From: a virus
Virus record (IMG/VR): IMGVR_UViG_3300024520_000416
Coordinates: 1 to 27,072 of that record
Length of the DNA: 27,072 nt
Reading direction: 5' to 3' (one strand)
In this document: positions 2,735-23,262 of the stretch, piece after piece
Layout: each line of letters starts with the position of its first letter
How positions within the stretch are numbered: the first letter of the stretch is position 1
Program-made: the position numbers and the translations under genes
The notes under the pieces: model-generated
Told to the model about the DNA's origin: nothing
Databases searched by the model: none
Seen by the model: only the letters and a program-made list of their open reading frames with translations

Positions 2735-2743
2735 TCCGTCCCC

Positions 2744-3337
2744 CTAGAAGTTGTAGGCGATGCCCACGGACCTCTTTGAAATTGTTGGGTACACCCGAGC
2801 CGGCGCAGTGTGCCCACGATACAGCCGATACGCAGACCATAGCGCGTGGGAGGCTAACAGAGGAATGGCGATCTCACCTCGTCCACCGAGACGCTTGAAG
2901 TTGTACATATCCCCGTCCCTCCTGAATCCCCCGATGCCCGCCTCAGTCCCCACCACGTAAACCGCAGTGCATAAAACGTGCCAAGCAATGATACCAGTCC
3001 CCACAGCCGTACGTTCCTGGCCGAGCGCGAACACCAGCTCGCTAGCAACCGCCTGATTAGCGAACCCCGCCATGTAATAGGACGGAGTGCCGAGCCCTTC
3101 GGTGTGGACGTAGAGGAATCCATCTCTAGCCTGAAACCTCGAACTCTTCCCCCTACTCCACCCCTCGAAGAAGTGCCCCGACTCATGCGCTGCAAAGCCC
3201 ATGCCAACGCCTAGCAGGAATCCGCCACCCTTCTTAGCCCATCCGTCTGCCTGCGCTGTAGACGCGCAGAGGAGCGCTACAGCAACGGCGGCTAGTTCGT
3301 GTCCTTTACGTGCTTGGCGATATCGCTCAGTTCGCAT
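2744..3337 (-). CDS. Exported/membrane protein with an HExxH metalloprotease-like motif
   Basis: A 197-residue protein. Residues about 14-30 form a signal-peptide-like stretch ending in STAQADG. A hydrophobic Gly-rich helix (39-50) runs straight into H51-E-S-G-H55, the HExxH zinc motif, followed by FFEGW. Further hydrophobic segments lie at about 113-131 and 153-170. A conserved-looking AGFANQAVASE block (90-100) supplies polar and acidic residues that could complete a metal site, and the protein ends in aromatic Phe. HExxH inside or next to a membrane helix recalls site-2/M50-type peptidases, but no third ligand can be fixed by eye. The 5' end overlaps the 3' end of the coiled-coil membrane gene by 46 nt, a long overlap typical of compact lysis cassettes. 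The function is inferred only. Confidence 0.6.
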   Translation of the reverse strand: MRTERYRQARKGHELAAVAVALLCASTAQADGWAKKGGGFLLGVGMGFAAHESGHFFEGWSRGKSSRFQARDGFLYVHTEGLGTPSYYMAGFANQAVASELVFALGQERTAVGTGIIAWHVLCTAVYVVGTEAGIGGFRRDGDMYNFKRLGGRGEIAIPLLASHALWSAYRLYRGHTAPARVYPTISKRSVGIAYNF

Positions 3338-3681
3338 TCTACTAGGTTCTCTTTGCGGTAGCTCGGCCCCTTGCAGACGCGGGCGATCACCGCTGCCCTC
3401 GACTCCGCTTTGGCATTCTTGACCGCTTCTTTCTGCTTCGCGTCTGCTCTGTCCTGCTTCATCTCGCCGACCAGATCCTTAACGGACTGCTCGACTCCAT
3501 CCACCTTCTTCTCAATCTTGACGAATCTACCGTCGATGTACGCAAGGTGCTCGTCTTGACGCCCGTCCGTGGCTTCCACGCTGAGAACCCAACCTCCTGC
3601 GGATGCGGTAGCAGCAACAATTGCCAGCACGATTGACCACCAGTTGATAAACCGGCTTGGGTCCAGCTTCTTCCGAGCCAC
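3292..3681 (-). CDS. Single-pass membrane protein with coiled coil, i-spanin-like
   Basis: A 129-residue protein. A short basic N-terminus (MARKKLDPSR) precedes one membrane helix (about 14-34), then a long charged helical segment (about 45-97) with heptad-like spacing and a C-terminal region with two Cys. This N-in, C-out architecture with a periplasmic coiled coil is that of Rz-type inner-membrane spanins. Some phage membrane proteins of unknown role look the same, so the call is by topology and location in the putative lysis cluster rather than by sequence recognition. It starts 9 nt after the preceding small membrane gene. No Rz1-like lipoprotein is embedded in its alternate frames. Confidence 0.55.
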   Translation of the reverse strand: MARKKLDPSRFINWWSIVLAIVAATASAGGWVLSVEATDGRQDEHLAYIDGRFVKIEKKVDGVEQSVKDLVGEMKQDRADAKQKEAVKNAKAESRAAVIARVCKGPSYRKENLVECELSDIAKHVKDTN

Positions 3682-3690
3682 GTCGCCCCC

Positions 3691-3972: not shown

Positions 3973-3980
3973 TCTGAACC

Positions 3981-5726
3981 TCAGTAGTTGGTTGGGGGTG
4001 GTGGCCCCTGCTTGTCGATCAATGCCATGCCGAACTGTATCGCGCTCAGTTGGTCGGCCGTTGGGGGGTCGGTCCAATCGGCTCCATCGGTCGTAGTTAT
4101 CACGCAGTCTGCTAGCTCAACGCCCGCCGCCAGAACTGTCCCGTATCGATTCGCCGCCGTTCCGTCGTCGTCCGAGTAGGCGAGGGTCAACACGCACTTG
4201 TAGGGGCTGACGGTCGTATCGGTGTAGTCGCGTTGCACGTAGTAGCGAATCCCATCTGTATGGTAGAACCACTCGCCGAACGTCACGATATCCCACTCAT
4301 TCGCGTCATCGTTCTCGGGGTCGGGTCTCTCGGCAATCGTGCCTGTTGCATTTCCACCCGTTGGAAACCAGCGCTGATAGCTGATATGCGAGCGCGATAC
4401 CGAGCAGTTGGCAGCCGTCTCCCCGTTCAGCGAAGTCATGCAGTTCCACATCGACTTAGAGGTCTTCGGTCTCGGGTCGGCGATACCGTGCGCGGCAAGA
4501 ATCGTCGGCATCAGGTCGCTAGCGTGGAACATCTGATCCGGCAGCATCACCCCATTCTCAACGCCACGCCCCGCACAAACCAGCGCAGATCGGATGCCGC
4601 ATGGGTAGGCGCTCTTCTTGACGAAGCCTGTACTGCACTCTGCGGAATGGATGTTGGGGGCCATCGCCTGCGCGGTCCCGTTGTCGGTCATCGAGCAGAC
4701 CACCGAATCAGACGATGAGCTAATCACCTGGCCATCATGAGTCTCAATGGCATCAATCAGCAAACCCTTCTGCACATCGAGGTATTCGAGCGAGGCTAGC
4801 CATACATCGCCCTCGTCATCTCCAGCAGTGAACGAATAGCCGGGGGGCCAATCGTGCTGGTCTTCCGTCGCCCCGTGGTCGGAGTAGTTACACGAGCCTA
4901 TAGCCCCCGCCCCCGGTCTGTTCGGTGCGTGCGTGATATTGTCCCAAACCAGCAGCACGTGAAAGCCGGTAGTCTGCGCTTCGATGTATTCGATCGCGTC
5001 GTCGTATATCTGCTTGCCGGTGTTCTCTGTGCTGAATGTAATAGCCCCGTCAAGCGTTGAGACGGGGCCGTAGTTGTGCCCCTTGCAATCGTCCCAAACA
5101 TTGACGGAGCCCGGCAGAACTCCCTGCGTGTAGTCGATGTTCCACGGGTTGTCGTCGTTGCCGAGCATCACGATGTTGGCCGTAGTGAAGCCAAGCTGTT
5201 TGATGAATGCGACTCCACTAGCAGGGTTGCTTATTTGGTCCTGCGACATATGGACCTTGCCGGCAAAGTACGTGCTCTTGCCGTTTGCCTCTAGCGTCCT
5301 CGGCAGTGTCGAGATGGCGGGGTTAGCAGACCAGTATGAGTAGTCATGGTCTGCGCGCCGCCCCGCCCCATACATATGATTGTAGTTGCCGACATCGAGC
5401 CCTGAGATGATCGACCACCGAGTAGGAGTACAAACCTGCGAGACCGTCATCCCGCTAACGACCATCCCCGCGTCTACAATGCGCGTCAGGTTTGGGGTAT
5501 CGACTCCGGTGTTCGGCGCAACGGGAGTAGCGGGGTCGGACGCATTGGCGAATAGTTCCTCCCCGACATCGTGCAACCCCTGAAAGTTCAAGGAGCTAAC
5601 GTCATCGTGCATCATGAGCACAAAGAAGCACGGCTTAGCCACGCAGCTAGGGGTAACGTCGGAAGCGTGCGCAGGCGCAGCCCATGCGGCTAGGAGCATC
5701 ACAGCTAGAGCAGTCGCACGATTCAC
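3981..5726 (-). CDS. Secreted sulfatase (alkaline-phosphatase superfamily)
   Basis: A 581-residue, full-length type I sulfatase that hydrolyses sulfate esters. Visible motifs: Sec signal peptide (1-22, cleaving near AHASD); metal-site D41-D42; signature C99-T-P-T-R103 followed by SIISG, where the Cys is converted to formylglycine; G-K157-V-H159, matching the family's GKWH block; H266 in THAP; D348-N349-G metal ligands; and HASDLMPTILAAHGI (401-415), the family's conserved C-terminal helix. It has many Cys, as expected for an extracytoplasmic protein. Start GTG 5726 has AGGAG overlapping the preceding stop. It sits in the late operon between a secreted beta-rich protein and the lysis candidates. 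Activity requires a host formylglycine-generating enzyme or anSME, none being encoded here. The substrate is unknown; sulfated polysaccharide is the natural guess. Confidence 0.9.
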   Translation of the reverse strand: MNRATALAVMLLAAWAAPAHASDVTPSCVAKPCFFVLMMHDDVSSLNFQGLHDVGEELFANASDPATPVAPNTGVDTPNLTRIVDAGMVVSGMTVSQVCTPTRWSIISGLDVGNYNHMYGAGRRADHDYSYWSANPAISTLPRTLEANGKSTYFAGKVHMSQDQISNPASGVAFIKQLGFTTANIVMLGNDDNPWNIDYTQGVLPGSVNVWDDCKGHNYGPVSTLDGAITFSTENTGKQIYDDAIEYIEAQTTGFHVLLVWDNITHAPNRPGAGAIGSCNYSDHGATEDQHDWPPGYSFTAGDDEGDVWLASLEYLDVQKGLLIDAIETHDGQVISSSSDSVVCSMTDNGTAQAMAPNIHSAECSTGFVKKSAYPCGIRSALVCAGRGVENGVMLPDQMFHASDLMPTILAAHGIADPRPKTSKSMWNCMTSLNGETAANCSVSRSHISYQRWFPTGGNATGTIAERPDPENDDANEWDIVTFGEWFYHTDGIRYYVQRDYTDTTVSPYKCVLTLAYSDDDGTAANRYGTVLAAGVELADCVITTTDGADWTDPPTADQLSAIQFGMALIDKQGPPPPTNY

Positions 5727-5737
5727 AGGTCCGGCTC

Positions 5738-7366
5738 CTATCGCGTGTAGCAGAGAGTTACGATTGCATTGTCAGTGCCGCCCGCCCCTACCGCAGTGAC
5801 GTTAAGCCAGACCATTTGATCGACTGCAATCGACGTGTTGGCTAGTGATAGATCCTCATCGAGTGTGCTGTCTGCATCGCAGGCGCTAATTGTAGCGATG
5901 GTCTCTGTACACCTGGCTTTCTCAAGCCGAGCTGCTGCGATAGTCGTTGAGCCGTCATCGTCGCAAAAGTTGTCAGGGTTGCCAGATGTTTGCGGAGGGC
6001 CGCCCGTGTCGTACAAGTTGACGCAATCGCACTGAGAGATGTCGAACGTCGCATCGCCTGACCCCACATCCTCGCAGAATGCATGAACGCGGGTCAGGGT
6101 CAGCGCATGGCCGGGGATCATCACCGGCGAAGTCTCAGAGCCCGAGAACCCGCCGAAGTGAACGGTTTCACATTGAGTCGTTCCGGTGGTTACGTAGGTG
6201 CCATTCTCGTTCGGCTCCGAGCGAGTGCGGCTGGCGTCAAGCAAGTCCATGTCCGTCGTTAGGGTGTACGTGCCGTTGTTCATCACGAGCACGTCCGTAT
6301 CTCCCTCGCCAGGAAACAGAGTCACAGGCCCATCATGCGCCGCAGAGATGCGAGTGTTCCATGTCGCCTTATCCGCCATGATGCCTCTGATTTTGAAGTC
6401 ACTAGCCCACGTTCCGCACGAGCCAGTACCGTCGCACTGGATCTGACCTTGCAACTTCATCGTATCGTGCCGATCTCCGTCGCCGCCGACCACATCGACA
6501 CCATTAATGACAAACGCCTGACCAGACAGCTCATCTTCATTAGCTGCCCAATTCTCACCGGCTAGCCGCCCGTTGTTGATTCCTGCCGAGGTGACGCCCA
6601 TTTTCAGATATGAGGTATCGCCGATGTAGGTACCACCTAGCGATGGGTCCGTCACAGCAAGAATTGCAGCGGTGTCGTCTGTCGCCCCCGTCGTGATGAG
6701 ATACCGACTCACTCCGTCATGGGTAACTGTCGCACTTGCGAAGCCAGCGCTAGCAGACGTAGCGCGTAGGGCCACTTGGATCTTCGCTGCGATGTCGTCC
6801 TCGTCTGAAATGCCTGCGGTAAAGTCCAGCCCAGACACGTCTTGAGATTCCGCATTGATCGTCACCTCAAATTCGCCGTCACTCACGCCTTGGAATGTAG
6901 CCACGCTACCAGAGACCTTGCCGAGCAACGTCGCCGAAGTGACAACGGCATTGGCAGCACCACCCGAAGTCAGCAGGGAGCTATCTGCGGCTAGCGTCGG
7001 GATCTCCCAACTACCGTCCGTATTGCACAGATATGCAACCTTGGGGGTGAGGTCGAATGAGGATGTGAAGATTGCAACGTCGTCGCCCGATACGCTGCAA
7101 CTATACCCAATCGTGTCATTATCAGTGAACACCCGACCGTTGCTGCCGTCGATGTCGTCCTGAAGAATCCGCGTCACGCCGAGTGTGGTGCCGTCGTAAG
7201 TCAATGACGAGTCACTACCAATAGAGCCGCTACTATTCAGCAGAACTTCAGTATCACTAGTGCCGCTGATATCAGCCGAGCCGCCAAGTTCCTGCCCTGC
7301 GCTACCCGCTACCGCAGCTCCCGCGTAAAACACGCAGAGCAGCGCTGTAAGAAATGATCTCATCAT
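5738..7366 (-). CDS. Secreted beta-rich protein with tail-fibre-like segments
   Basis: A 542-residue protein from ATG 7366 (a second ATG follows at 7363). GGGAG lies just upstream; an in-frame upstream ATG at 7399 would start inside the preceding gene. Residues 1-21 are a clear signal peptide (MMRSFLTALLCVFYAGAAVAG). The next part (LLNSSGSIGSDSSLTYDGTT) is typical of phage and bacterial tail-fibre-like proteins. A later block (EFEVTINAESQDVSGLDF, continuing to AAKIQVALRA) resembles the repeat found in phage DUF3383-type tail proteins. The C-terminal third is Cys-rich, suggesting disulfides outside the cytoplasm. A tail fibre with a Sec signal would be unusual. It could be a surface-displayed or secreted binding protein working with the sulfatase that follows 11 nt later. 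Confidence 0.7.
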   Translation of the reverse strand: MMRSFLTALLCVFYAGAAVAGSAGQELGGSADISGTSDTEVLLNSSGSIGSDSSLTYDGTTLGVTRILQDDIDGSNGRVFTDNDTIGYSCSVSGDDVAIFTSSFDLTPKVAYLCNTDGSWEIPTLAADSSLLTSGGAANAVVTSATLLGKVSGSVATFQGVSDGEFEVTINAESQDVSGLDFTAGISDEDDIAAKIQVALRATSASAGFASATVTHDGVSRYLITTGATDDTAAILAVTDPSLGGTYIGDTSYLKMGVTSAGINNGRLAGENWAANEDELSGQAFVINGVDVVGGDGDRHDTMKLQGQIQCDGTGSCGTWASDFKIRGIMADKATWNTRISAAHDGPVTLFPGEGDTDVLVMNNGTYTLTTDMDLLDASRTRSEPNENGTYVTTGTTQCETVHFGGFSGSETSPVMIPGHALTLTRVHAFCEDVGSGDATFDISQCDCVNLYDTGGPPQTSGNPDNFCDDDGSTTIAAARLEKARCTETIATISACDADSTLDEDLSLANTSIAVDQMVWLNVTAVGAGGTDNAIVTLCYTR

Positions 7367-7389: not shown

Positions 7390-7794
7390 CTAGCCGCACG
7401 TGATCGAGACGGTTGGGTCAGCACCGCCGCCCTCAGTCCAGTCGATTCGTATGATCTTGTGCGGGTACTGTGATACGAGAAACGCATTCGGACTCGTGCC
7501 GGTCAGTGACGCAGACAGCAAGTCTTCAACCTCTCCGCATGAAGTATCCGTACAGGTCTGCGGCATGATGTCGCCACTGGCCCCGTATACTTGGATCACG
7601 TATGTGCGGCACTCCTGCAGCACAATCGCGGACGAATCCGCCGTGATGTCAGTGAGCCAGCAGGTTCCACCTTTGCGGATAGCTCCGCATGAGACGGTGC
7701 CTCCGTCCTCTGTCATCCAATCCGCCGCACTCGCCGCACCCGCAACGAACAGCAGCAGAAACGCCGTGGCTGTAATCGTGATTAGTCTCTTCAT
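7390..7794 (-). CDS. Small secreted Cys-rich hypothetical protein
   Basis: A 134-residue protein from ATG 7794, preceded by GGGAG. An in-frame start 42 nt upstream would put a polar stretch before the signal peptide and is rejected. Residues 1-24 are a signal peptide (MKRLITITATAFLLLFVAGA, then ASAAD). The mature domain of about 110 residues has seven Cys, probably disulfide-paired, and is predicted to be beta-rich by eye. Its end (DWTEGGGADPTVSITCG) resembles the end of the next secreted protein in spacing of Trp, Gly-rich loop, Asp and final Cys. It is the first of three consecutive signal-peptide genes. I do not recognise the family. Confidence 0.65.
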   Translation of the reverse strand: MKRLITITATAFLLLFVAGAASAADWMTEDGGTVSCGAIRKGGTCWLTDITADSSAIVLQECRTYVIQVYGASGDIMPQTCTDTSCGEVEDLLSASLTGTSPNAFLVSQYPHKIIRIDWTEGGGADPTVSITCG

Positions 7795-7819: not shown

Positions 7820-8320
7820 TTATGTAACCGACACATCGCCCGACGAATCGAACGTGCAAGAGGTTGAGATCCGATCTACTGAACTCGGTAGGTCCGTGTC
7901 CGTCGCCAGCGCATCGGAGATAGGCACCTTGAGGCAGCGGTTCACCTTCGCTTCGAGATCCTGAACCAGCATGGTTAGCCGGTCGAGTGAAGCTTCTAGA
8001 CTCGCCGCTGGTAGAATGTCGTTGTCTACTAGGTCGGTTGATTGAGTGAGTGGGATAGAGCGCTGAATCGTCCAAGTCATCGTTGAGGCGAAATCAGTAG
8101 CGCCATCGATTGGAGTAACCGTGCCAGTAGCACCCGTCGATGAGCCGCCCGTGATGTTGTAGTGCGTAGCGTCAACCATCGTGGTCTCTGCACCCGTCGC
8201 CGTTACGCGCTGAGTTACGATCACGTCGCTATCAGCGAAGTATTTGAACACCGTGCCAATCCCATTATTTGTACCGTCGCCGGTTACTATGGTGGGGGTG
8301 TAGGTGGATGAGATGGTCAC
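7820..8320 (-). CDS. Tail fibre N-terminal adaptor domain protein (T7 gp17-N-like)
   Basis: A 166-residue protein that follows the pattern of the conserved N-terminal domain of T7-type tail fibres: an opening STYTPTIVTGDGTNNGIGTVFKY-like beta strand set, a middle VDATHYNITGG strand, then TMTWTIQRSIPLTQ and a LPAASLEASLDRLTMLVQDLE helix that ends the particle-binding domain. Only a short tail (FDSSGDVSVT) follows, so no receptor-binding shaft or tip is present. The fibre is therefore short or completed by another protein. Start GTG 8320 shares one base with the stop of the upstream ejection-protein gene (TAGTG), with GGAGG about 9 nt upstream. Confidence 0.75.
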   Translation of the reverse strand: MTISSTYTPTIVTGDGTNNGIGTVFKYFADSDVIVTQRVTATGAETTMVDATHYNITGGSSTGATGTVTPIDGATDFASTMTWTIQRSIPLTQSTDLVDNDILPAASLEASLDRLTMLVQDLEAKVNRCLKVPISDALATDTDLPSSVDRISTSCTFDSSGDVSVT

Positions 8321-11300
8321 TAGTTCGACCTCCGTTTGCGCTTGCGCTTCTTGGGTAGGCTGAGTGCTTCGGACACGCCGTCTTCTAGTTGGTCAAACAC
8401 GGCTTGCAAATAGGGGACTTGGTTGTACGGGGTCAGGCGTCTGACTGTTCGCATGTCGGCGTCGGAGAACCCTTGCGCGCCGCCTACGACGATCTTCGCA
8501 GCGCTTTCGATAGTGCCTAGCGTTGGACCTGTAAACGTTGAGGTCAGATTCCGAGCGGCGTAGCGGCTAGACATCCCCTCCCTTCCGGCGATGATCTTGC
8601 CCATGTTGAACATCGTGCCGTAAACGCCGAGCGCTCCGGTGCGGTCGATCCCCGCCTCTACCCATCCGCCGAGCGTTTCGGGGTTCTGCCTGTCGTTCTG
8701 CTGGTTCTTTATCCACTCAACCGACATCCCGAGCGCGGTCATTATCGCCAGAGCGTTGAGCGTTGCCATGTCTGCCGTTTGCAAGCCAGCGAGGAGAATC
8801 GTATTCGTAGCGCCAAACCCGAACCGCTGGAACTGGAAGACGGTCCTCCCGAGTTCGGTCGAGAGCCACAGCGGAGCAGCTCCTGCCCCTGGCGTCAAGA
8901 TCGTATTGTCCACAGTGAACCGCACAGCTCGGCCCCACTCCTGACGCGCTTCGAGGTCTGTCCAGTCGAGCGTGTTCGACCACTTGAGCCCGTCCGCTTC
9001 CGTCATCCCTCCGCCATGCAGCAGTTCAGCGCGGATCTTGGCGCGGATGTCTGGACCGAGGCGAGCAAACTCAAGCTTCGCTATGTCCTTCGCTGTCGCG
9101 GTCCCCGTCCCCTCTGCGATGATCGTATCTATCATCCGCGTCATCGAGACGTTTCCCGCGATTCCCTTGATTATCGAGTTCCACGGGGCAAGCATATTCA
9201 CGATTGAGAAGTTGCGCGAGACGTTCTGCGCGACCTCTTCTACGCGGTTCTGGGCGAACTCCGTACCGATGTCTGCAACGAGCTTGGCCCGTGTGTCAAC
9301 TGCGAGATCAACCGCAGAGCCGAACAGGTTCAACTCCTCGCGAGCCAGTTTTGTTGAATCCAAATTCCGAATGAACGGGATATACCCGGACTTGAAAGAC
9401 CTCACCAGCCCATTGCGCATAGGAATCATGCCGAGATCGGGGATGGAGTTAATACCGAAGCCACCGCCCATGCTGGAGAAGTTGATAGCGCGCACCACTC
9501 TGCCAGCCGTCACGAGGTTATTCATCGGAGGCACTCCGTAAGTACCCCGCAACAATCCCACCATGCCCTTGAGCTGCTCTATGTCGTCGGCTTGCTGGGC
9601 TTGGATCTTTGCCCGCTCCTTTGGAGTCTTAGCCGCCGCGCGTGCATCGGCGTATTCCCGACCTACTTGCTCTAGTTGCTCGTGAAGATCCAACGAGCCG
9701 AACTTGCGCATGATGGCAATATCGGGAGCCATCGTGCGAATGTACTGATCCGTGAGCACTTCGATATCCTGCTCTAGGTATTCCTCAATGAACGAGTCTT
9801 CCCACGTCAACGCACGCTCTTTGAACGGGCTACCCTTGCCGGACGGCATTTGCTCGTATTGAATCCGCCCGCGCGTGCTCGTAGTGATGTTCTCGAATAT
9901 GCTATGGACATGGTTATCCACAGCCCTGTCGATGGCGGCAGACTGCTCCGTTGTGAACGTTCTCTTTTCGAGGCCGCCGGTTCCACTCGTCTTCCCTTGC
10001 AAGTCTGCTTGCTTCAGGATGGCGTTGATCTCTTCGTCAGAGATTATGCTGCGCACCCACGGTCGTATCTTTTGCGACTTGAACGTGTCTTCTTCGGCTA
10101 TGATCTTGGTGACGTTGTACACGCGCCGCAGGTAGTTCCGTGCGCCCTTCGGCCCCATTGCGAGAACTTCCTCGGGCATCATGCCGAGGTCGGTCATGTC
10201 CTTAACCATCGGCTTGTATACGGTCTCGTCGAGCATCTTCCCGAATTCGTTAGCTTCGGGGATACCGCTATCCCGCGAACGGAACGAAGCGCCCGCCTCT
10301 CGGTTGAACTCGGAGGGGGAGAGGATCACAGTACCCTTGCGTCGTTGCGTAACGATATCGGTAGCGTTGATTACATTGCGACGCAGCCGCCCACCTTCGG
10401 CAACCAGAGCACCACCCTTCCCGCTCTCCTTCGCTATCCGCGCGCGGTACGTCGTATAGAGGCGGTCGCGCTCCTTCACCATACGGAACACCAGAGCGTC
10501 GGTTGAAAGGATCTCGGCTTCAACAGAAGAGCCCGACACCGCGCCCGTGGTCCTGACTGGAGAATCAACCAGTTCCATTACCGACTTCTTCATGGTATTG
10601 GAGTGGCTGCCGCCAATAATCCGCACAAACGGGCTAATCGCTACCCGCGCGCCCTTCATCGCCGACCATCGCTCGAATCCAAAAGCTTTCTGTAGCTTGA
10701 TCTCAGCACCCGAGGAACTGCCGTCTGTAGGCTGAACTAGGTCCGCTTCGGTTAGCTTCACCTCGTGCGATGTGCCCGAACCGCCTCGGAGATGAGCGGA
10801 GCCTAGATCGTCGTTGATCTGCTTCAGTACCGCGCGCCGGCTACTGCGGCTCATCTGGCCAACGCCAGCACCCAACATGCCGCCGAGGAACATCGAAGCG
10901 GTAACGTTGAGCACGCTCTCGTCGAGTGACCGCGTATCCTGCGCAGCCTGCAATACCGCTTCCGATGCCGATGCGCCTATCATCGCAGCCCGAGCAGTGG
11001 AGATGCCCGAGGTCAGCGGCCCCGCTATCTCTGCTGGAGCCGTTCCCGTGAATGCTACCTTGGCAATCTCCGCAGCCTTCGCGCCTCGTGTGAGCTTCGC
11101 CGCTGCAATCGTTGCATTAGCCGCCTTGATCTGTCCGCCTATAGGCATCATTATCAATGGGTCAATCATCCCAGCAGCGAAGGTAGCCACATATCCGAGC
11201 GCGCCGGCAGACTCAAGCCGCTCGTGGCGTGCTAGCCATTCCTCGCGGTCGATGCGCTTAGCTTCCTTCTCGTCTTGCGTCCTGACTCCGATGAGGTCTT

Positions 11301-11547
11301 CTGGGAAATCCTCGAATATCGTTCCCTCGATATCCTCGAATGCGTCGAAACCGTCAGGAGGCGCAGCGTCATCCAATGGCGGTACATCGGCCAAGAAATC
11401 AAACGCCGCTACGACGGTGTTCTCTTGCTTGAATGCATCCTTCACCACTTGACCATAGCTAGGCCGCTGCGTTACCGAGGCAGGCGGATCGCTGCCGGGG
11501 AAGTCACTCCTTGTCGGAGATAGCGAGACTTGTTTATTGAGAGTCAT
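8320..11547 (-). CDS. Large internal virion/ejection protein (gp16-like position)
   Basis: A 1075-residue protein, the largest in the window. The acidic N-terminal 100 residues (repeated Asp/Glu/Phe such as FEDIEGTIFEDFPEDL) are followed by hydrophobic, Ala/Gly-rich segments around 115-230 that could be membrane-active, then long charged helical stretches, and a very basic C-terminus (KKRKRKRRSN). Size, alternating hydrophobic and helical composition, and location just before the tail fibre match the terminal ejection protein of podoviruses, which is delivered into the cell with the DNA. I see no convincing lytic transglycosylase or RNA polymerase motif. The start overlaps the previous gene by 4 nt. 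Confidence 0.65.
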   Translation of the reverse strand: MTLNKQVSLSPTRSDFPGSDPPASVTQRPSYGQVVKDAFKQENTVVAAFDFLADVPPLDDAAPPDGFDAFEDIEGTIFEDFPEDLIGVRTQDEKEAKRIDREEWLARHERLESAGALGYVATFAAGMIDPLIMMPIGGQIKAANATIAAAKLTRGAKAAEIAKVAFTGTAPAEIAGPLTSGISTARAAMIGASASEAVLQAAQDTRSLDESVLNVTASMFLGGMLGAGVGQMSRSSRRAVLKQINDDLGSAHLRGGSGTSHEVKLTEADLVQPTDGSSSGAEIKLQKAFGFERWSAMKGARVAISPFVRIIGGSHSNTMKKSVMELVDSPVRTTGAVSGSSVEAEILSTDALVFRMVKERDRLYTTYRARIAKESGKGGALVAEGGRLRRNVINATDIVTQRRKGTVILSPSEFNREAGASFRSRDSGIPEANEFGKMLDETVYKPMVKDMTDLGMMPEEVLAMGPKGARNYLRRVYNVTKIIAEEDTFKSQKIRPWVRSIISDEEINAILKQADLQGKTSGTGGLEKRTFTTEQSAAIDRAVDNHVHSIFENITTSTRGRIQYEQMPSGKGSPFKERALTWEDSFIEEYLEQDIEVLTDQYIRTMAPDIAIMRKFGSLDLHEQLEQVGREYADARAAAKTPKERAKIQAQQADDIEQLKGMVGLLRGTYGVPPMNNLVTAGRVVRAINFSSMGGGFGINSIPDLGMIPMRNGLVRSFKSGYIPFIRNLDSTKLAREELNLFGSAVDLAVDTRAKLVADIGTEFAQNRVEEVAQNVSRNFSIVNMLAPWNSIIKGIAGNVSMTRMIDTIIAEGTGTATAKDIAKLEFARLGPDIRAKIRAELLHGGGMTEADGLKWSNTLDWTDLEARQEWGRAVRFTVDNTILTPGAGAAPLWLSTELGRTVFQFQRFGFGATNTILLAGLQTADMATLNALAIMTALGMSVEWIKNQQNDRQNPETLGGWVEAGIDRTGALGVYGTMFNMGKIIAGREGMSSRYAARNLTSTFTGPTLGTIESAAKIVVGGAQGFSDADMRTVRRLTPYNQVPYLQAVFDQLEDGVSEALSLPKKRKRKRRSN

Positions 11548-13709
11548 GGTTCCACGATCCTGCGTGGCTTCTTGGCAGTCGGGACAGTGAGACCCGTTAG
11601 AGCTTCCGCAAATCCGGCGTTCTCTTCGGACCGTCTCAGCAAGCTAATGGCAGCGCGTGACGATTCCTTGATCTTCTGCCCTTCCTTCGCCTCCTTGAGA
11701 CTATCCGCTCTCCGCTCTTCAATCAGGCGTTGGTCATCGGGGAAGAACCGCATAGGAATGTTGTTCTCATCGAGCAGTTGCAACGTGTCGCCGCCATCAT
11801 CGCCGAGTAGGAACACGTTGTAACCAGGAGTCAGAGCGCCCGTGTCGGGATCGTGCTCGCGCATACTGTCTTCGTCAGCGCTTAGCATGATCCGGCTCGC
11901 AATCTCATCGGCGCCCAAGTCGGCTACTTCTGGAGTTCCGGCGAGGGTGAGATCCGCTACTATCTGCCGCGAGATCTCCTCGGAGTCGTTATTGAGCTGC
12001 TTGTACATCAACTCGGGAGCCATGTACATAATACGAGGCTCACCGCTGGTATTCGTTACGCCCCAAGAAAGCTTCATCTTGCTCAACGCTCGTTCGAGAG
12101 ACTTCTCGATATTCGGATCCAACGTGTGCTGCCGCTGCACCTCAGCAGAAAACGCCTTCTGCAATCCGGGCCCTATGTCATCGGTGCTGGGGTCGAAGGC
12201 ATACGGCAGCACAATACGGAACGCATCACTGTTCTTAACTAGCCAGTCACCGTCCCTCTGATCGCCCTGCAGAAACGCATGATGTTGCCTGCGCCCCTTT
12301 GCAATGTCGGGGCTAAGCTTCGCTATCTCTCTGGCATCGGATACCGCTTGCTTGACGGGGACTCCGAGCACTACCGACGCATCAACGTTTTCGAGGAATG
12401 TCGCCGTCTCGTCACCCATGCGCGCCGTGGCTTGTGGCGAGACGTTGCGCATCGCTACGAACAGTTCCGCAGCCTCAGCTACCTGCGTTGGTGTGCCGTT
12501 GCTGGTCTTGGCGCGTAGTTCCTTCTCGATGATTGAAGGCAACACGTCGATATCGTCTACTAGATCAATCTTCGCATCTCGCAGTTCTTCTGGCGTCGCG
12601 TCTACCAAATCCGGCAGAAAGATCTCTTCCATATACGCGTCAATGTCTTTCATGTCCTTCGGGTCGATGAGCAACCCAAAAGCAATCGAGTCGGCAACCT
12701 TCTGCGCCCCACTATCAGCGGAGCTTAGGCGGTCGATCCTTGCGCGGAATTGGTTATCAGCGTGGATTGCCTCTGATTCGGTAATCACATTGGACTCTGC
12801 CAGAGTGTCGATACTCGCCTTTGCCGCGAAGATCTCCGTAGGTGTGGACATCTCTGCAATCTGCGAAGTCATCTTACGGCGGCGTCCTGCGTTGAAGCCA
12901 TTAACCGCCTCCGACTGCTCGGCTGCCACATCTCGGCGCAGATTCGTACGCTGCGTGGATGTCAGGCTCGGAGTATCCTCGGGGTCCTTGAGCATTCCCT
13001 CCGCTGCAACCAGTAGCGCAATAGCCTCCTCTTCGTTGTCGGTCGCGTCTGCGAGGTCGATAAGACGCCGCACTGACTTGATATCGACGCCTGCAAGGAA
13101 CGCTTCTACCGCCGCAGGCTTATCCTCAGCGCGGATGATCTCCGAATCGTTTATCATCCCAACGCCGGACACAACGAGCCGCTCCTTGGCTCCTGGGGGC
13201 GCTATCACAACTGAATCGGACAGTTCCGAAAGGTTACTTTCGAGTGCAGCCTCACCAGCGGCCAGCTCACGCTTGAACTGAATATTTCCCATTGACGCAA
13301 GATGCGCGGTCATGAGCTTCTGAGATCCCTCCGCGTATGCAGCCCTCGCGCCATCGTCGCTAATGTTACGGCCTATGTTCCCCCTGAGTTCTTCTCCGCG
13401 AGCTTCAAACGTGCTGGAGATTGCGCCGATATCGTCCTGCTCTGCAACGTCACGTCCGAGGTTATCCAACTCCCGGCTAAACGATGTGAATGCGTTGTTG
13501 CGCTCTTCCCGTGCCCGCTGTGCTTGGCGAGCGGCCTCCAACTCCCGCCGGGCTTGGATTGTGCCGGCAACGTGCCTCTCCAACGGACGCACAGCACTCC
13601 CAAGTGAATCGCCAATCGACTGCCCAAGCGCAAGGGTACGCTCAGGGCTCACCGATGAGGTGAACTCAATCTTGCCCTGAACAGGTCGCGATGTAGGTAC
13701 TCTAGGCAT
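11544..13709 (-). CDS. Internal virion protein (gp15-like position)
   Basis: A 721-residue, predominantly helical, charged protein with long Ala/Glu/Arg-rich stretches (for example RRELEAARQAQRAREERN near residue 55) indicating coiled coils, and no signal peptide or obvious enzyme motif. In T7-like phages the gene between the gp14-like and gp16-like ones encodes the middle ejection protein that forms a periplasmic tube, and position and composition support that role here. The start ATG shares one base with the upstream stop (TAATG) and its end overlaps the next start (ATGA). Confidence 0.65.
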   Translation of the reverse strand: MPRVPTSRPVQGKIEFTSSVSPERTLALGQSIGDSLGSAVRPLERHVAGTIQARRELEAARQAQRAREERNNAFTSFSRELDNLGRDVAEQDDIGAISSTFEARGEELRGNIGRNISDDGARAAYAEGSQKLMTAHLASMGNIQFKRELAAGEAALESNLSELSDSVVIAPPGAKERLVVSGVGMINDSEIIRAEDKPAAVEAFLAGVDIKSVRRLIDLADATDNEEEAIALLVAAEGMLKDPEDTPSLTSTQRTNLRRDVAAEQSEAVNGFNAGRRRKMTSQIAEMSTPTEIFAAKASIDTLAESNVITESEAIHADNQFRARIDRLSSADSGAQKVADSIAFGLLIDPKDMKDIDAYMEEIFLPDLVDATPEELRDAKIDLVDDIDVLPSIIEKELRAKTSNGTPTQVAEAAELFVAMRNVSPQATARMGDETATFLENVDASVVLGVPVKQAVSDAREIAKLSPDIAKGRRQHHAFLQGDQRDGDWLVKNSDAFRIVLPYAFDPSTDDIGPGLQKAFSAEVQRQHTLDPNIEKSLERALSKMKLSWGVTNTSGEPRIMYMAPELMYKQLNNDSEEISRQIVADLTLAGTPEVADLGADEIASRIMLSADEDSMREHDPDTGALTPGYNVFLLGDDGGDTLQLLDENNIPMRFFPDDQRLIEERRADSLKEAKEGQKIKESSRAAISLLRRSEENAGFAEALTGLTVPTAKKPRRIVEP

Positions 13710-14188
13710 TATAGGAGTACACCCATTCCAGGCGCAGTACGCCGCCCACTAGACCCGCTTGAGGTGCTACCCAATCCGCTGAACTGCGCGCCGCTTGGTT
13801 GTGGAGTCCCTCCACCCTGCAGGCCAAAGCTCGTCACTGAGGAGACGATGGAGCTGATTCCGCTGATAATGCCCTGCGTCTGAGCCTCCTCACCTCTCCG
13901 CTCCATGCTCATAGCTTCCGCCTCGCGTGCAAACTTGGCACGCAGTATTGCCAGTTCCGCCTCTGCTACCGTATCGCCGAGAACTGCCAGAGGGGTGCCG
14001 GTGCCGGGGTCTGCTCCGGTCGTCGCAAACGCCACCTCTTGAGAAGCCAGCAAGCGCCGCACATTGCGCCGCGAGTCTCGAGCTTCTACCGTCGCGAGTC
14101 TGCGCTTGAACGCTGCCGCTAGCTTCGCGTCACGCTTCGCTGCAATGCCGCCGATGATTGCGCCTGTTCCGCTTACAACTCCACCCAT
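13709..14188 (-). CDS. Internal virion protein, T7 gp14-like
   Basis: A 159-residue protein starting at ATG 14188, which shares one base with the upstream stop (TAATG). The much longer open frame upstream of this ATG lies inside the neighbouring gene and is rejected. It has an N-terminal Gly-rich hydrophobic stretch (GGVVSGTGAIIGGIAA), then a helical Arg-rich region, the TTGADPGTGTPLAVLGDTVAEAE block, and a Gly/Ser-rich C-terminus. That middle block strongly recalls the gp14 virion core family, whose members assemble into the outer-membrane part of the DNA ejection channel. T7 gp14 itself is somewhat longer. Confidence 0.7.
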   Translation of the reverse strand: MGGVVSGTGAIIGGIAAKRDAKLAAAFKRRLATVEARDSRRNVRRLLASQEVAFATTGADPGTGTPLAVLGDTVAEAELAILRAKFAREAEAMSMERRGEEAQTQGIISGISSIVSSVTSFGLQGGGTPQPSGAQFSGLGSTSSGSSGRRTAPGMGVLL

Positions 14189-14631
14189 TAGAGTTCCACC
14201 CGTGCATATAGGTCGTGTGTCTTCTGGTCCGGTGCGTAAGCCGTCATCGTGCCTTCGTGGCTGAACCCGAGACGGAATATCCAGACGTGCGCTTCGTCGT
14301 CGCCCTCTTCCACCGTAGCCTGCAATCGCCAGTAGCCGCGCTCGTTGTAGAGTTCGTTCAGAAATCGGACTACGCCACGAGTCAGCACTACGCCGCGTGC
14401 CTTCGCTGCATCGGTTATCAGCGTCCAGACCACTCCAACTCCTTTCCACTGAAACGCCACGCCAACGATAGCTAGAAGCTCCCCGTCATCTTCCCACGTG
14501 CGCGCATCCGCGTAGAGCATCTCTCGACTCTGCTCGGTATCGGGGAGGATTGAACGCACGTCGGCCTCGGCGTCAGCATCGGGTAGATTGATGCGATGCA
14601 AATCCTCGAACTCTGTCGGCCTCCAAGTCAT
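14188..14631 (-). CDS. GNAT-fold-like protein, T7 gp13-like (DUF2833-type)
   Basis: A 147-residue protein with the look of a degenerate acetyltransferase: MLYADARTWEDDGELLAIVGV for the first strands, LNELYNERGYWRLQATVEEGDDEAHVWI for the helix and central strand, and RLGFSHEG, a close match to the GNAT motif near the C-terminus. The acetyl-CoA loop (Q/RxxGxG/A) is not evident. Phage proteins of this kind (DUF2833, T7 gp13) sit next to the tail tube and internal virion genes and are needed for virion assembly. It overlaps the nozzle gene by 4 nt (ATGA) and the gp14-like gene by 1 nt. Confidence 0.6.
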   Translation of the reverse strand: MTWRPTEFEDLHRINLPDADAEADVRSILPDTEQSREMLYADARTWEDDGELLAIVGVAFQWKGVGVVWTLITDAAKARGVVLTRGVVRFLNELYNERGYWRLQATVEEGDDEAHVWIFRLGFSHEGTMTAYAPDQKTHDLYARVEL

Positions 14632-17513
14632 CGTTGCCCCGTGCTGCTGAGAATGTTCATCGCCAGAAGGTTGAACGGGAGCGGCTGCCGTTGCCGCACG
14701 TAGACCCGCTTATCGCGTTGGAACCCTTCTGGAAACGCTTGCTTCCGGTCTCCTGTGAACGCGGGGACGCTGGTATCCATCGCGTCGGCACCGTCACGCA
14801 TGATGATCGGGTCCATGCGGGTCGGGAGTAGTTCCGGTCCGAACTCACCTCCAATCGTGTTGTAGAGTCTAAAGACTACGTGGTCAGTCCGGGCGACTTT
14901 GCCCATCGAACTGCCTTCCGGGTCGGGGGGGTCGAGCGGTATAGTCTGCAGAACGGAGTCGTAACCGAGCCCCGCTACAATGTCGGTATAGGTATCGTCG
15001 AGAGTGATCGCGCCGGATGAGACCACGCGCTCGGGATGCACTGCGCCGTTAGCCAACACCTGCACCGTCTCACCCTCGAGATGGTCCAGCCCGCTGTAGG
15101 TATTCGTGGCAGTGCTTGAGTAGGTAGCCCCCGCCGAGTCCATGAACATCATGTCGGTATCGGTACCGGAGAGCCACTCGTCCTCGAAGAACTCGATATG
15201 CCGCGCTGTGGAGCCGTTCACGGTTCGCTTGACGGTCATCCATACTTGGTCATGAGTCCCCGCCATAGCCGGAATCACCGCTACTGATTCGACTACAGCG
15301 TCACCTGATTCGGTAATCGTGTGAGTGCCGGAACCCTGATCCGTAATCGTCACTGCAGTAGAGTCGGGAGTGAGCATTAGCTGGAACGTGTCTGCGTCAA
15401 TTACTGAAACGTAGTAGTTCGTACCCGTGGCGAGTCCTGCAGGCAGATCCGCCGCAGAGGTAGTGAGCAGGAACGGCCCTTGGTCCTCAACGTAACCGTG
15501 TCCCGTGATCGTTATCGAGTCGTCTGCTATGGTCACAGCCGCTGCAAGGAAGTCCTCAGCATCACCTGAGCCGAAGTTCCCGCCGATGATATGCCGATGC
15601 CACGCGAATACCTGCTGTTCAGGGACATAGGTAACGGCTGCTAGCTGCCCATCGCTGCGCACGCACCATAGAACTTGATGCCGGTCCTCTTGATACGCCA
15701 TGTCTGTGATAGTGAGAGTGCGGCCGAAGATGTGCTTAGCAATCAGCGTCACGTCGATAGAGTCGATGTGATCTGAATCGGAGTCAATCGTTACTGCTCG
15801 CAGCCCTTGGTGGTTCGCAGTCACGTATGCGATCTGATCGCTAATCACTGCAGGAACAATAGCCGCAGCGCCCACCGTAGAGACTCGCTGCATGTTGAGG
15901 TTGGTCGGCGTGATACCATCGCCATCGAATGAGCCACGCACTACGAATAGCGCGTTAACCGTGCCGAGCAGCATCCGGTTACTAAGCACCGCCCATCTGA
16001 AAGCGTTGATCTCGCCCGTGCCTACCGTGAACGCTAGCGCCGATGTGTCCAACACCGCTGGAGCCGCTGCGAGGTCATCCGGCCTGAATGAGTTGTAGGC
16101 GTTAGTCACACTCGCGCGGAACGTCTGCGGGTCGTCGTCATCACCGCACATCACCAGCCGCTGCTCTACGAATGAGATAACTGAGGGCCAACTGCCCGGA
16201 TACCATCGGCCCATGCTAAAATCAGCCGTCGTAGTAGTGCTAAACAGGTCGGACTTCACCCTGCACCACGCCACCGTGGAGCTGAATATCTCGAAGATCT
16301 CGACATAGCCGGGGGCGTTGCCGGCGACGTGGTAACGCATAATCCGCCCGATGTCCGTGCTTGCATCGAACGTATACCCAACGGCCGTCATCGTGATATA
16401 TCCGGTGGTGGCGCTAGCCGTCATCGTAATCGTGCTATCAGCGTTCTCGTCTAGGTACGGTCCGTCGATGATTGCCACGGAATCAAGCGCCCAGTGAACG
16501 TGCCAAAAACTGTCAGCGCCCCTCGTCAATTGCGCTGGCCGATGGTCTGGATGCACTATGTAGAGGAAATCCGCAGACTGGGCAAACTGCAAGTCGAATA
16601 GCTCCGACTCAGTGTACGACGTGGCGACTTCTTTCTGTAGCCCGACCGGATCTCCTGCGGGATTCGCCTGGATGCGATGCGTCCCAGACCCTACGCTTGA
16701 AATTGTAATCGGAGAGCCCGTTGGAGTGGTCGCGAGCCTGAATTTCTGGCGCAGGTAATCGCCGGTAGGTGTCAGCGTGCATGTCCCGCTGCCTACTGCT
16801 GATACATTGACACCACCGCCACCGGCCGAGGTGCTCAACTCGTAATGAGTGGCATCTATCCAGTTGATGTAGTAATCCGTGTCACTATCCATTCCGACAG
16901 GATTGTAGCCAGTAGTGGTAAGCCGGAACGGTCCTTGCTGGTCCGTGTACCCGTGCGCATCGGTGGTATCGATAACACCGGGGCTCGCTATCGGGCAATC
17001 GGTCGCCGCGTCGAACGTGCTCGACTGCGGCAGGCGGATGTAGTAGTCGGTGTCGAGGGCAACTTGTGGCGAGGTCGTAGGCAGCGCCCCCGATGTATGT
17101 GTGAAATGGACCGGACCCTGACCGTCTACATAACCATGCGTCTGGTCGGCTAAAAGGTTCCACATCTCTTCTGTATTCAAATCAGTAGTCACATTGGCAG
17201 AGACTATGATGTCTTCTTTTAAATCCGCAGCTTCATCGGCAAAGATGCGGATTGTCGAGTCGCTGAATTCCAGCATGTACGTCTGCGAGTTTGAAAACGT
17301 GAACGGTACAAGACGGCTCTTGACGGACTCATCCTCAACCGTCTTAACGAACCGAGTAGCAGGCCGACGATGCACGCCACCCTCTGGATGCACGATGAAG
17401 TTCTCAATCGTCGCAGCACCCTTGCCGTACTTATCCGTATCCGGCCGACCCATGAACTCGGGAGACACCTCTCCCGCGTTAAATGCGAACATCGGCTGTG
17501 ACACCTTAGGCAC
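14628..17513 (-). CDS. Tail tubular protein B / nozzle (T7 gp12-like) with inserted repeat modules
   Basis: A 961-residue nozzle protein. The opening (FNAGEVSPEFMGRPDTDKYG, then IENFIVHPEGGVHRRPATRF) is a hallmark of podovirus gp12-type tail nozzles. Strands such as FSNSQTYMLEFSDSTIRIF and ADFLYIVHPDHRPAQLTR also fit. Three copies of an HGYxxxQGPF...YY...GSGT module are visible starting near residues 126, 187 and 672. They are presumably surface-exposed insertions that lengthen this protein beyond T7's (about 800 residues). It assembles below the tail tube A ring and forms the distal channel. It follows the gp11-like gene by 3 nt and overlaps the gp13-like gene. Confidence 0.85.
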   Translation of the reverse strand: MPKVSQPMFAFNAGEVSPEFMGRPDTDKYGKGAATIENFIVHPEGGVHRRPATRFVKTVEDESVKSRLVPFTFSNSQTYMLEFSDSTIRIFADEAADLKEDIIVSANVTTDLNTEEMWNLLADQTHGYVDGQGPVHFTHTSGALPTTSPQVALDTDYYIRLPQSSTFDAATDCPIASPGVIDTTDAHGYTDQQGPFRLTTTGYNPVGMDSDTDYYINWIDATHYELSTSAGGGGVNVSAVGSGTCTLTPTGDYLRQKFRLATTPTGSPITISSVGSGTHRIQANPAGDPVGLQKEVATSYTESELFDLQFAQSADFLYIVHPDHRPAQLTRGADSFWHVHWALDSVAIIDGPYLDENADSTITMTASATTGYITMTAVGYTFDASTDIGRIMRYHVAGNAPGYVEIFEIFSSTVAWCRVKSDLFSTTTTADFSMGRWYPGSWPSVISFVEQRLVMCGDDDDPQTFRASVTNAYNSFRPDDLAAAPAVLDTSALAFTVGTGEINAFRWAVLSNRMLLGTVNALFVVRGSFDGDGITPTNLNMQRVSTVGAAAIVPAVISDQIAYVTANHQGLRAVTIDSDSDHIDSIDVTLIAKHIFGRTLTITDMAYQEDRHQVLWCVRSDGQLAAVTYVPEQQVFAWHRHIIGGNFGSGDAEDFLAAAVTIADDSITITGHGYVEDQGPFLLTTSAADLPAGLATGTNYYVSVIDADTFQLMLTPDSTAVTITDQGSGTHTITESGDAVVESVAVIPAMAGTHDQVWMTVKRTVNGSTARHIEFFEDEWLSGTDTDMMFMDSAGATYSSTATNTYSGLDHLEGETVQVLANGAVHPERVVSSGAITLDDTYTDIVAGLGYDSVLQTIPLDPPDPEGSSMGKVARTDHVVFRLYNTIGGEFGPELLPTRMDPIIMRDGADAMDTSVPAFTGDRKQAFPEGFQRDKRVYVRQRQPLPFNLLAMNILSSTGQR

Positions 17514-17516
17514 TAA

Positions 17517-18077
17517 CTACCACCTCGCATCTGTGAAGGCATTCGCATCGACGGCGCGGACCTTCTCAGTCTGGCTATCCGCAGAGCGAGCTACGTTCAG
17601 CTTGTTCCGATACAGCCCCGCCATCTGGTCTACTACCGATGTAGTCTGAGTGAGCGGTTCTGCCCATTCCATCGCAAGCCGTGCTGCAAGAGCCTCTCGG
17701 AACGTCGAGTCCATCTCGCCCACTTCTACCGACCCGATGTAGAGCAGATTCAGCGGGGCACCGATGTCCGTAACGATCATCCGCCCTTCGTTGCGCCACT
17801 CCTCACCGCCGGCATTCTCCACCTCCACCACGCGCAGGCATCCGGTTGGGAGGTTGTACGCGTACGCATAGCCCCACGTCGGAGTTGCAGCATTTGCCGC
17901 AATCGCAGCACGCTTCAAAGCAAAGTTCCACGGAAACTCACGAAGCAACGCATCGCGGATATCCGCATAGGTACGCGTAGCAAGCCGACCCGCTGGACTC
18001 ACATCCGTCGTATTGACTAGATTCTGTTCCCCGAGCTTCGACAGCGCGGAGTTGATGACATCTATATCAGCAGCCAT
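17517..18077 (-). CDS. Tail tubular protein A / adaptor (T7 gp11-like)
   Basis: A 186-residue protein with the standard gp11-type pattern: a start rich in INSALSKLGEQ, a helix with RDALLREFPWNFALKRA, then YAYNLPTGCLRV followed by polar loops and a FREALAARLAMEWAEPLTQ helix near the end. These adaptors form a 12-fold ring joining portal to nozzle. The start ATG 18077 follows an 80-nt gap after the previous stop, with AAGGG upstream. The nozzle gene follows immediately, as in T7. Confidence 0.85.
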   Translation of the reverse strand: MAADIDVINSALSKLGEQNLVNTTDVSPAGRLATRTYADIRDALLREFPWNFALKRAAIAANAATPTWGYAYAYNLPTGCLRVVEVENAGGEEWRNEGRMIVTDIGAPLNLLYIGSVEVGEMDSTFREALAARLAMEWAEPLTQTTSVVDQMAGLYRNKLNVARSADSQTEKVRAVDANAFTDARW

Positions 18078-18157
18078 GGAACCCTTTCAGGCTACCAACG
18101 GGCGACAGCGGCAAGGAGGTGAGGAATCCGCCGCCGCCCGAGGGCAGTCACTAGCTG

Positions 18158-18730
18158 TCAGTCGCCCGCGACGTAGAACGCCTCGAGCTGGACGAGGCTG
18201 ATCGCCACTGTCGGCTCAACCGTCATCGTGAAGACGAGGTCAAACGACACCTTTGGATCTACCGTGTACGTCGATGCGGCAGTGATGTTGACGAGTTCCC
18301 AGAGTTGGAGGCCGATGTTCTCCGTGTCGTAGTCTCCGTTCTCGAAGTGCTCAACGCGATCGTGCGCGGTGTCGATGTCTACCGCCGTGGTAGAAAAAGC
18401 ATCTACGCAAGCCGCAGCCGGCAAGGCCCCGTCATGGTTGGCGCCGCTGAGGTAGATCCCAAGGTCCGCATCTCCCGCAGTCGATCCGCCGTCCGAACTC
18501 AGGAGCAACGAGTAGAGCACGTCACTCGACTTGAGAGTGAGCATACGGACCTCTTCTCCGACACCCGCCACAGTACCCATGCCAACCCGCGCATGTGAAC
18601 GCCGCTGGCGGGAGTGGGCCTTCTTGACCGATACTTTCTTGGCCGAGTCGATCGCGAGTTCCTCGGCAAGAGCGCCAACGCCGTCCTCAACGGTGCCGCT
18701 CGAATTGTAGTGACTACTAAAAATGGACAT
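18158..18730 (-). CDS. Hypothetical structural protein between capsid and tail tube A
   Basis: A 190-residue protein that I do not recognise. The N-terminal part (to about residue 50) is basic and helical (SAKKVSVKKAHSRQRRSHAR). The remainder is beta-rich and acidic with a clear strand pattern through to the end (TVEPTVAISLVQLEAFYV). Location directly after the major capsid gene suggests a head decoration or head-completion role, with the basic N-terminus contacting capsid or DNA. AGAAGGA upstream of ATG 18730 is a good ribosome binding site. Confidence 0.6.
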   Translation of the reverse strand: MSIFSSHYNSSGTVEDGVGALAEELAIDSAKKVSVKKAHSRQRRSHARVGMGTVAGVGEEVRMLTLKSSDVLYSLLLSSDGGSTAGDADLGIYLSGANHDGALPAAACVDAFSTTAVDIDTAHDRVEHFENGDYDTENIGLQLWELVNITAASTYTVDPKVSFDLVFTMTVEPTVAISLVQLEAFYVAGD

Positions 18731-18777
18731 ATTGATTCCTTCTCATTGCGACACGACACCGCATCGCACAATGAACA

Positions 18778-18809
18778 GGCAGGGGGCCACGACTCCGCGA
18801 CCCCCAGCC
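18778..18809 (-). terminator. Stem-loop after the capsid gene
   Basis: On the minus strand GGC-T-GGGGG pairs with CCCCC-T-GCC across a 14-nt loop: eight G-C pairs with one T-T mismatch, starting 11 nt after the capsid stop. No U-run follows, so it is more likely an attenuator or RNA-stabilising hairpin that raises capsid mRNA over downstream tail mRNA than a full intrinsic terminator. Confidence 0.55.
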
Positions 18810-18820
18810 GATTCAAATCC

Positions 18821-19699
18821 CTACAGATCCTCGTCGCAGAGAATCTCTACAACGCCAACCTGATCCATCCGCACAGCACCGATATCCATCTTGTAGGAAA
18901 TCTGCGTACTGTGATTCTTCCCCGGAAGGATGTCGATGTTCGATGTGACATCCGCACCAATGGCGAGCTTCATCGACTGCTTACGCCAGCAGAAGACCGA
19001 CCGGATGTTGCCGGTAGCCTCCGGCAGACGTTCCGACTTGAGGAACTTGAACCCAAGCCAGGAATCCACGGAACCATCAACAAGCGCGCGTACGCTGTTG
19101 AAGTCGCTCGATGTAAAGTCCGTGCTACCGAGCAGGCCCTCACGCTGTTCCGCCGAGCAGACGCAGTACCACTGATTGTCCCCGTCATCCTCGGGATTCT
19201 CAGCAGCTTCCAGAATCCTGCGCGCCGTGCGCAGCTTCGCGGTAGTGAGGTTCGACGTGCCCACAGCGACCTGATAGTTCGTGGTGTCGAACGCGTCGGT
19301 CCCCGTTCCCGTCTTCCCCGTAGCCACCGTGGCATCGAAGGCAGAAATGATCGTGTCATCAATCTGCCGATTCGCTGCCGACGCCATGTTGCGTGCGTAT
19401 GCGCTGGTCGGGCTGGTGATCGTGCGAAGAACATCCGCGCGGTCCACCAGATCATTCACCGCGTAGGTCGTCATGCTGACGCGCCTGCGGCTGTGGGGAG
19501 TGTCGGTGTACTCGGTATCACCGTGACGGGTCGATACCTCGGACATGGCAGTAGCAGAGATCTGATCGAAGTAGGTAAACTCGCCGTTCACCGTTTCGAC
19601 ATCCACAGCACCGCGCAGGTTGCTACCCATCTGCTGCTGCAGCATCTGGATGTTGTCTTTGTACTGCTGCTTCATTGCAGTAGTAATTTGCGTGCTCAT
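18821..19699 (-). CDS. Major capsid protein
   Basis: A 292-residue protein between scaffold and tail genes. The opening helix (MSTQITTAMKQQYKDNIQMLQQQMGS, positions 1-26) followed by LRGAVDVE and TYFDQISA is the usual start of podovirus coat proteins of the HK97-fold group found in N4-like and marine short-tailed phages. A VEILCDEDL end follows a beta-rich C-terminal domain. Size and order support the call; the exact capsid family is not certain. A strong GGAGG lies 8 nt before ATG 19699, and the gene has an unusually long structured leader of about 170 nt, the longest non-coding gap inside the late operon. Confidence 0.8.
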   Translation of the reverse strand: MSTQITTAMKQQYKDNIQMLQQQMGSNLRGAVDVETVNGEFTYFDQISATAMSEVSTRHGDTEYTDTPHSRRRVSMTTYAVNDLVDRADVLRTITSPTSAYARNMASAANRQIDDTIISAFDATVATGKTGTGTDAFDTTNYQVAVGTSNLTTAKLRTARRILEAAENPEDDGDNQWYCVCSAEQREGLLGSTDFTSSDFNSVRALVDGSVDSWLGFKFLKSERLPEATGNIRSVFCWRKQSMKLAIGADVTSNIDILPGKNHSTQISYKMDIGAVRMDQVGVVEILCDEDL

Positions 19700-19736
19700 T
19701 GTGAGAGCCTCCGTAGTTGAATTGATTTCAATCCAA

Positions 19737-19862: not shown

Positions 19863-19868
19863 ACTTGC

Positions 19869-23029: not shown

Positions 23030-23031
23030 TG

Positions 23032-23247: not shown

Positions 23248-23262
23248 TGATTCCCCCGTTAC

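Follow-up and report, generated by a model that had tools for sequence, protein, structure and literature searches.

A predicted exported formylglycine-type sulfatase encoded among the late genes of a T7-like podovirus

Described sulfatases and phage depolymerases

Sulfate esters shield marine and mucosal polysaccharides from attack. Among the described S1 sulfatases, the mucin sulfatase 7ALL, the Zobellia carrageenan sulfatase ZgCgsA (S1_19) and the Pseudomonas arylsulfatase 1HDH share the PF00884 fold, the CxPxR motif and ten active-site residues with a protein encoded in the window, by which is meant the whole stretch of viral DNA analysed here (27,072 nucleotides, a 27-kb IMG/VR virus record, IMGVR_UViG_3300024520_000416). 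As in many secreted S1 sulfatases, a signal peptide is predicted on the window protein. In contrast, it is only 14-19% identical to these enzymes over the structural alignment, the insert that separates its first Asp pair from the TPN motif is longer, a trait common to a sulfatase domain on another phage contig (L089), and its gene is located among the late genes of a phage.

The phage depolymerases known so far either cleave polysaccharide chains or deacetylate them. The window enzyme resembles tailspike depolymerases and deacetylases, such as pectate-lyase-like spikes and GDSL/SGNH esterases, in its position in the tail-fibre slot and its presumed action on surface polysaccharide; unlike them, it is a separate Sec-signal protein without a virion-binding domain and is predicted to take off sulfate rather than cut the chain. 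Virus-linked sulfatase chemistry has also been reported, with sulfatases annotated as auxiliary on putative prophage regions from fish-gut metagenomes (PMC11077953) and formylglycine-generating enzyme (FGE) genes in Pseudoalteromonas phages (PMC10232697). Those cases were reported as auxiliary genes or as the maturase, whereas the window gene encodes a predicted exported enzyme inside a T7-like late virion operon. Giant viruses (Yasminevirus, Satyrvirus) likewise encode a sulfatase fold, but these are eukaryotic viruses, and the sulfatase-fold matches in BFVD at E<=0.001 comprised giant viruses only, with no phage protein among them. Within open PMC text, a scope outside which most subscription journals lie, the prophage sulfatases and the FGE genes were the nearest reports, and targeted searches turned up no description of a sulfatase from the tail module of a phage. 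Sulfatases as such are familiar enzymes, and a predicted exported one encoded in the late module of a phage adds a new form of them.

Identity and origin of the sulfatase gene

By motif, profile and fold, the open reading frame at 3981-5726 encodes a genuine formylglycine-type (S1) sulfatase (Table 1). These coordinates agree with the preliminary description, which had left out the strand (minus) and had proposed a full-length type I sulfatase with all catalytic and metal-site motifs and a Sec signal; residue alignment confirms the motifs, and a heuristic rule recovers the signal. The protein matches PF00884 (Pfam Sulfatase) at 33.2 bits (E 4.5e-8; gathering cutoff 25), and its Pfam and NCBIfam matches are to sulfatase models only. 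Its single PHROG match, a weak one, is to a family of unknown function to which the sulfatase domain of L089 is also matched. The canonical active-site residues are complete, all ten being present (D41, D42, C99, R103, K157, H159, H266, D348, N349 and K370), and an alignment of 36 sulfatases shows these positions to be invariant, K370 nearly so.

A phmmer search of the PDB retrieved an arylsulfatase at 1.2e-4, independently of the fold search. The predicted fold matches solved sulfatases with Z 30-35 over 320-370 residues, although the model is of limited confidence (mean pLDDT 62, pTM 0.67) and was computed from an input alignment of sulfatases, so that the fold match is not fully independent. 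Carrageenan and mucin sulfatases are among the closest folds, with Z 34.9 to the carrageenan sulfatase 9hh2; the last 130 C-terminal residues are poorly modelled. The intact active site could in principle serve another natural ester, such as a phosphonate or a phosphate diester, as in the phosphonate monoester hydrolases of the superfamily. Family-level motifs leave the substrate unfixed and the window protein is very divergent, but its best fold and sequence matches are sulfatases, and we consider such a substrate quite improbable.

Table 1. Features of the window discussed in the text.
Feature	Position	Strand	Basis or remarks
Type I (S1, formylglycine-type) sulfatase	3981..5726	minus	581 aa; GTG start, AGGAG upstream
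Predicted Sec-type signal peptide (sulfatase residues 1-21), cleavage expected between AHA and SDV	5664..5726	minus	heuristic
D41-D42, metal site	5601..5606	minus	residue alignment
C99-T-P-T-R103, formylglycine motif CxPxR	5418..5432	minus	residue alignment
K157-V-H159 of GKVH	5250..5258	minus	residue alignment
H266, substrate/sulfate-binding His	4929..4931	minus	residue alignment
D348-N349 of DNG, metal site	4680..4685	minus	residue alignment
K370, conserved active-site Lys	4617..4619	minus	residue alignment
Predicted exported or membrane protein, HESGH (HExxH-like) motif, C-terminal Phe	2744..3337	minus	heuristic
TM and coiled-coil protein, holin/XhlA-like candidate	3292..3681	minus	sub-threshold XhlA match
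Sec-signal protein, DUF3383-like segment, start MMRSF, SD AGAAGGGAG	5738..7366	minus	profile match and heuristic
Small Sec-signal protein, ~134 aa, start MKRLI	7390..7794	minus	heuristic
T7-type tail-fibre N-terminal adaptor as a gene of its own, 166 aa	7820..8320	minus	PHROGs and comparison with sister phages
Virion block: internal virion proteins, tail B/A, major head, scaffold-like, portal, terminase	8320..25716	minus	PHROGs

A phylogeny had been suggested as a means of finding the donor lineage, and no donor could be named from it. Placed in a tree alongside 61 sulfatases from bacteria and proviruses, the window protein lies on a saturated branch whose end is at the length limit; neither a donor nor a date is therefore assignable, and a bacterial donor based on the tree was rejected. 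No close cellular sister gene was recognised, and peptide patterns yielded no close relative in IMG/VR or in the GTDB species genomes. As far as the sequences compared can tell, none of the genomes sampled has recently donated the gene.

Assembly contamination, raised in the preliminary description, has left no sign. The sulfatase gene correlates at 0.94 with the other phage genes in codon usage, and 11 bases separate it from the upstream gene; its phage-like codon usage and its place in the late operon make contamination unlikely. A bacterial gene set beside phage genes by host contamination or by a chimeric contig would be in keeping with the bacterial appearance of most database 'phage' sulfatases checked, and with a second contig (L171) that is 100% identical to part of the virus and stops short of the sulfatase. 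Against this stand the 11-base gap, the Shine-Dalgarno sequence and the codon correlation, together with the lack of any close bacterial relative of the window sulfatase and the repetition of the layout in an independent contig (G071/L223), all of which leave contamination a very slim prospect. The second contig, IMGVR_UViG_3300024518_001588, is 10.8 kb long, and its proteins are 100% identical from the terminase small subunit to the middle of tail B.

The exported run in the tail-fibre slot

The window derives from a T7-like podovirus of the HTVC010P type, the closest isolates by head protein being HTVC010P-type Pelagibacter phages (~45%). Its minus-strand late genes follow the order terminase, portal, scaffold-like, major head, tail A, tail B, internal virion proteins and T7-type fibre adaptor, with PHROGs matches for the terminase, portal, major head, tail A/B and internal virion proteins. 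The sulfatase gene lies in the 3' part of this block, tightly packed and co-directional with the virion genes. The PHROGs matches and the shared direction agree with the earlier claim that the sulfatase is encoded alongside virion genes in a late operon; that account of its setting was incomplete, having missed both the exported run in the tail-fibre slot and its recurrence in a distant podovirus. A scan of the late operon for promoters and terminators gave no excess over shuffles.

Signal peptides were called throughout by a home-made rule on n/h/c layout. Its sensitivity is about half, since it flags only 31 of a set of 63 bacterial sulfatases, the majority of which ought to be secreted. By this heuristic, the sulfatase N-terminus, MNRATALAVMLLAAWAAPAHA followed after the predicted cleavage by SDVT, is a textbook Sec signal. 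The rule flags five consecutive ORFs (2744-7836), namely those starting at 7390, 5738, 3981, 3292 and 2744, the ORF at 3292 possibly having a plain TM helix instead, and none of the 17 other window genes. In the run, start codons with good Shine-Dalgarno sequences coincide exactly with the starts of the signal peptides. Only 1 of 710 ORFs is flagged in HTVC010P-type relatives, which indicates that Sec signals are no general trait of the group. The sulfatase is the third and last of three successive signal-peptide genes directly behind the stand-alone fibre adaptor. Its 553-aa neighbour, for which no close relatives were found, has a short Cys-containing motif in common with a tail-fibre-like Sec-signal protein of a sister phage (G062), a weak resemblance. 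The protein encoded by the last late-strand gene (2744-3337) gave no family match.

In sister phages, the adaptor domain is fused to a long fibre or to a pectate-lyase-like tailspike; in the window, the adaptor is a gene of its own and the sulfatase has no virion-binding domain. Two sister phages with major head proteins 46-47% identical to that of the window (G060 and G062) carry a Sec-signal fibre-like protein directly behind the fibre gene, and these two proteins are 38% identical to each other. In G052, a pectate-lyase-like tailspike occupies the slot; in the Manatee Spring phage, a gene with a GDSL-esterase annotation lies a few genes beyond it. The slot, common to the sulfatase and to the fibres and tailspikes of relatives, is one of the observations behind the mechanism proposed below.

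The adjoining fibre adaptor also bears on the main rival explanation, a virion-mounted enzyme which, as a component of the tail, would strip sulfate from the capsule at adsorption, either with its N-terminus unused for export or with exported proteins joining virions at lysis. Besides the position of the slot, sulfatase domains within large proteins of other phages speak for it, one of 1759 aa between baseplate hub and wedge genes (L229) and one of 1150 aa near a tail-fibre gene (L089). The heuristically called, textbook Sec signal on the sulfatase and those on two neighbouring proteins argue against it, as do the missing virion-binding domain and the cytosolic assembly of virions. A place on the virion is an unlikely role for the window enzyme, if one to be taken seriously.

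Recurrence in other phages and proposed function

A scan of IMG/VR with a mixed sulfatase alignment found 19 contigs. The layout of the window is repeated in a very distant podovirus (G071/L223), the portal of which is 26% identical: an internal virion protein, two signal-peptide proteins, a signal-peptide sulfatase and a coiled-coil TM protein come in this order. In the distant podovirus, the last internal virion protein is 2171 aa long, the two Sec-signal proteins have Shine-Dalgarno sequences, the Sec-signal sulfatase reads CTPYR at its formylglycine motif, and coiled-coil/TM proteins follow. A siphovirus tail module (L222) comprises tape measure, tail assembly and tail protein genes and then a sulfatase that has CSAHR and whose N-terminus is hydrophobic, and a packaging module (L219) has a signal-bearing, lipoprotein-like sulfatase behind terminase, portal and a virion protein. 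In the 37% GC phage L229, the domain-bearing protein (2519-7798) is a good candidate for a virion-mounted sulfatase; in L089, on a contig with terminase and portal, the sulfatase domain is found two genes from a tail-fibre-type gene. These two large proteins are signal-less and adjoin tail or baseplate genes. Both traits speak for a role on the virion in the two phages concerned, where the fused proteins make a virion-mounted enzyme plausible.

It had been asked whether catalytic residues are lost in related phages, and the opposite was found: the window protein, L089, L223 and L229 keep all ten active-site residues, and L222 keeps most of them, with two metal-site changes and CxAxR. The L219 sulfatase is missing the Pro of CxPxR. 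Since the window sulfatase is about equally distant from L089 and from bacterial genes, one old viral family and several acquisitions are indistinguishable. No PF00884 match was present in 68 further related podovirus records (43 and 25), many of which are fragments without the slot. Sulfatases resembling prophage cargo were left out of the count, namely the host-like L090/L211 and the one with CTAGR in L216-L218. The sole match to the window sulfatase in a phage collection, MT837205.1 (L002), labelled 'Bacteriophage sp.' in INPHARED, was rejected as bacterial, having genes for SMC, FtsY and threonine dehydratase. Most other INPHARED sulfatase matches are bacterial-looking, judged by names and record type, and comprise bacterial genome records, Acinetobacter 'MD-2021a' contigs and unverified faecal scaffolds.

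Formylglycine is made by a host FGE or anSME prior to Sec export. FGE (PF03781) was found neither in the window record nor in six other phage records, in line with the earlier proposal that the enzyme would depend on the formylglycine machinery of the host. In the proposed mechanism, the sulfatase would be made late in infection by the tailed T7-like phage, C99 would be turned into formylglycine in the cytosol by host FGE (or anSME), and Sec would then export the protein. Its site of action may be the periplasm, the cell surface or the lysate, where it would remove sulfate esters from capsule, exopolysaccharide or surrounding algal or particle polysaccharide. This desulfation could make the matrix looser or expose it to other depolymerases, whereby progeny would escape and reach new cells. 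The intact active site, the Sec-type signal, the packed co-directional operon and the recurrence support reading the protein as an exported sulfatase, and release at or before lysis is the best reading of its fate. The fuller proposal, in which a host-matured, Sec-exported glycan sulfatase forms the last enzyme of an exported run in the fibre/tailspike slot and desulfates surface or matrix polysaccharide in aid of progeny escape, has in our estimate about an even chance of being correct.

As an auxiliary metabolic gene, the sulfatase would nourish the infected cell by freeing sulfate or sulfated sugars, a role in which sulfatases have been annotated on the fish-gut prophage regions (PMC11077953). 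The window gene, however, sits among late virion and presumed lysis genes rather than replication or metabolism genes, with no transporter or sulfur gene nearby, which makes a metabolic role improbable.

The presence of sulfatases among the tail or head genes of unrelated phages suggests their repeated use by phages against the sulfated slime around hosts. More tentatively, and with somewhat less than an even chance, there may be a recurrent, unreported strategy in which podoviruses export fibre-like proteins and a glycan sulfatase from the tail-fibre slot, the exported module remodelling a sulfated surface or matrix from outside, while other tailed phages achieve as much with a sulfatase that is part of a tail or baseplate protein. 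Desulfation by an enzyme of the phage would, if this is true, represent a different way through the polysaccharide barrier, tie phage infection to organic sulfur turnover and provide divergent sulfatases for biotechnology. The run of Sec signals beside the fibre adaptor also raises the question of whether some phages export presumed tail parts.

Elsewhere in the window, positions 1-116 at the contig end hold about 19 tandem copies of GGTACG. Translated in the frame of the exonuclease gene, they give an (RV/RG) repeat; the array may mark an end of the assembly or be a genuine repeat of the phage. The terminase large subunit (23452-25716, minus) has an intein-like insert at residues ~63-340 (PF14890, 36.8 bits) adjoining the Walker A region; alignments with the terminases of relatives begin only near residue 330, consistent with their having no such insert.
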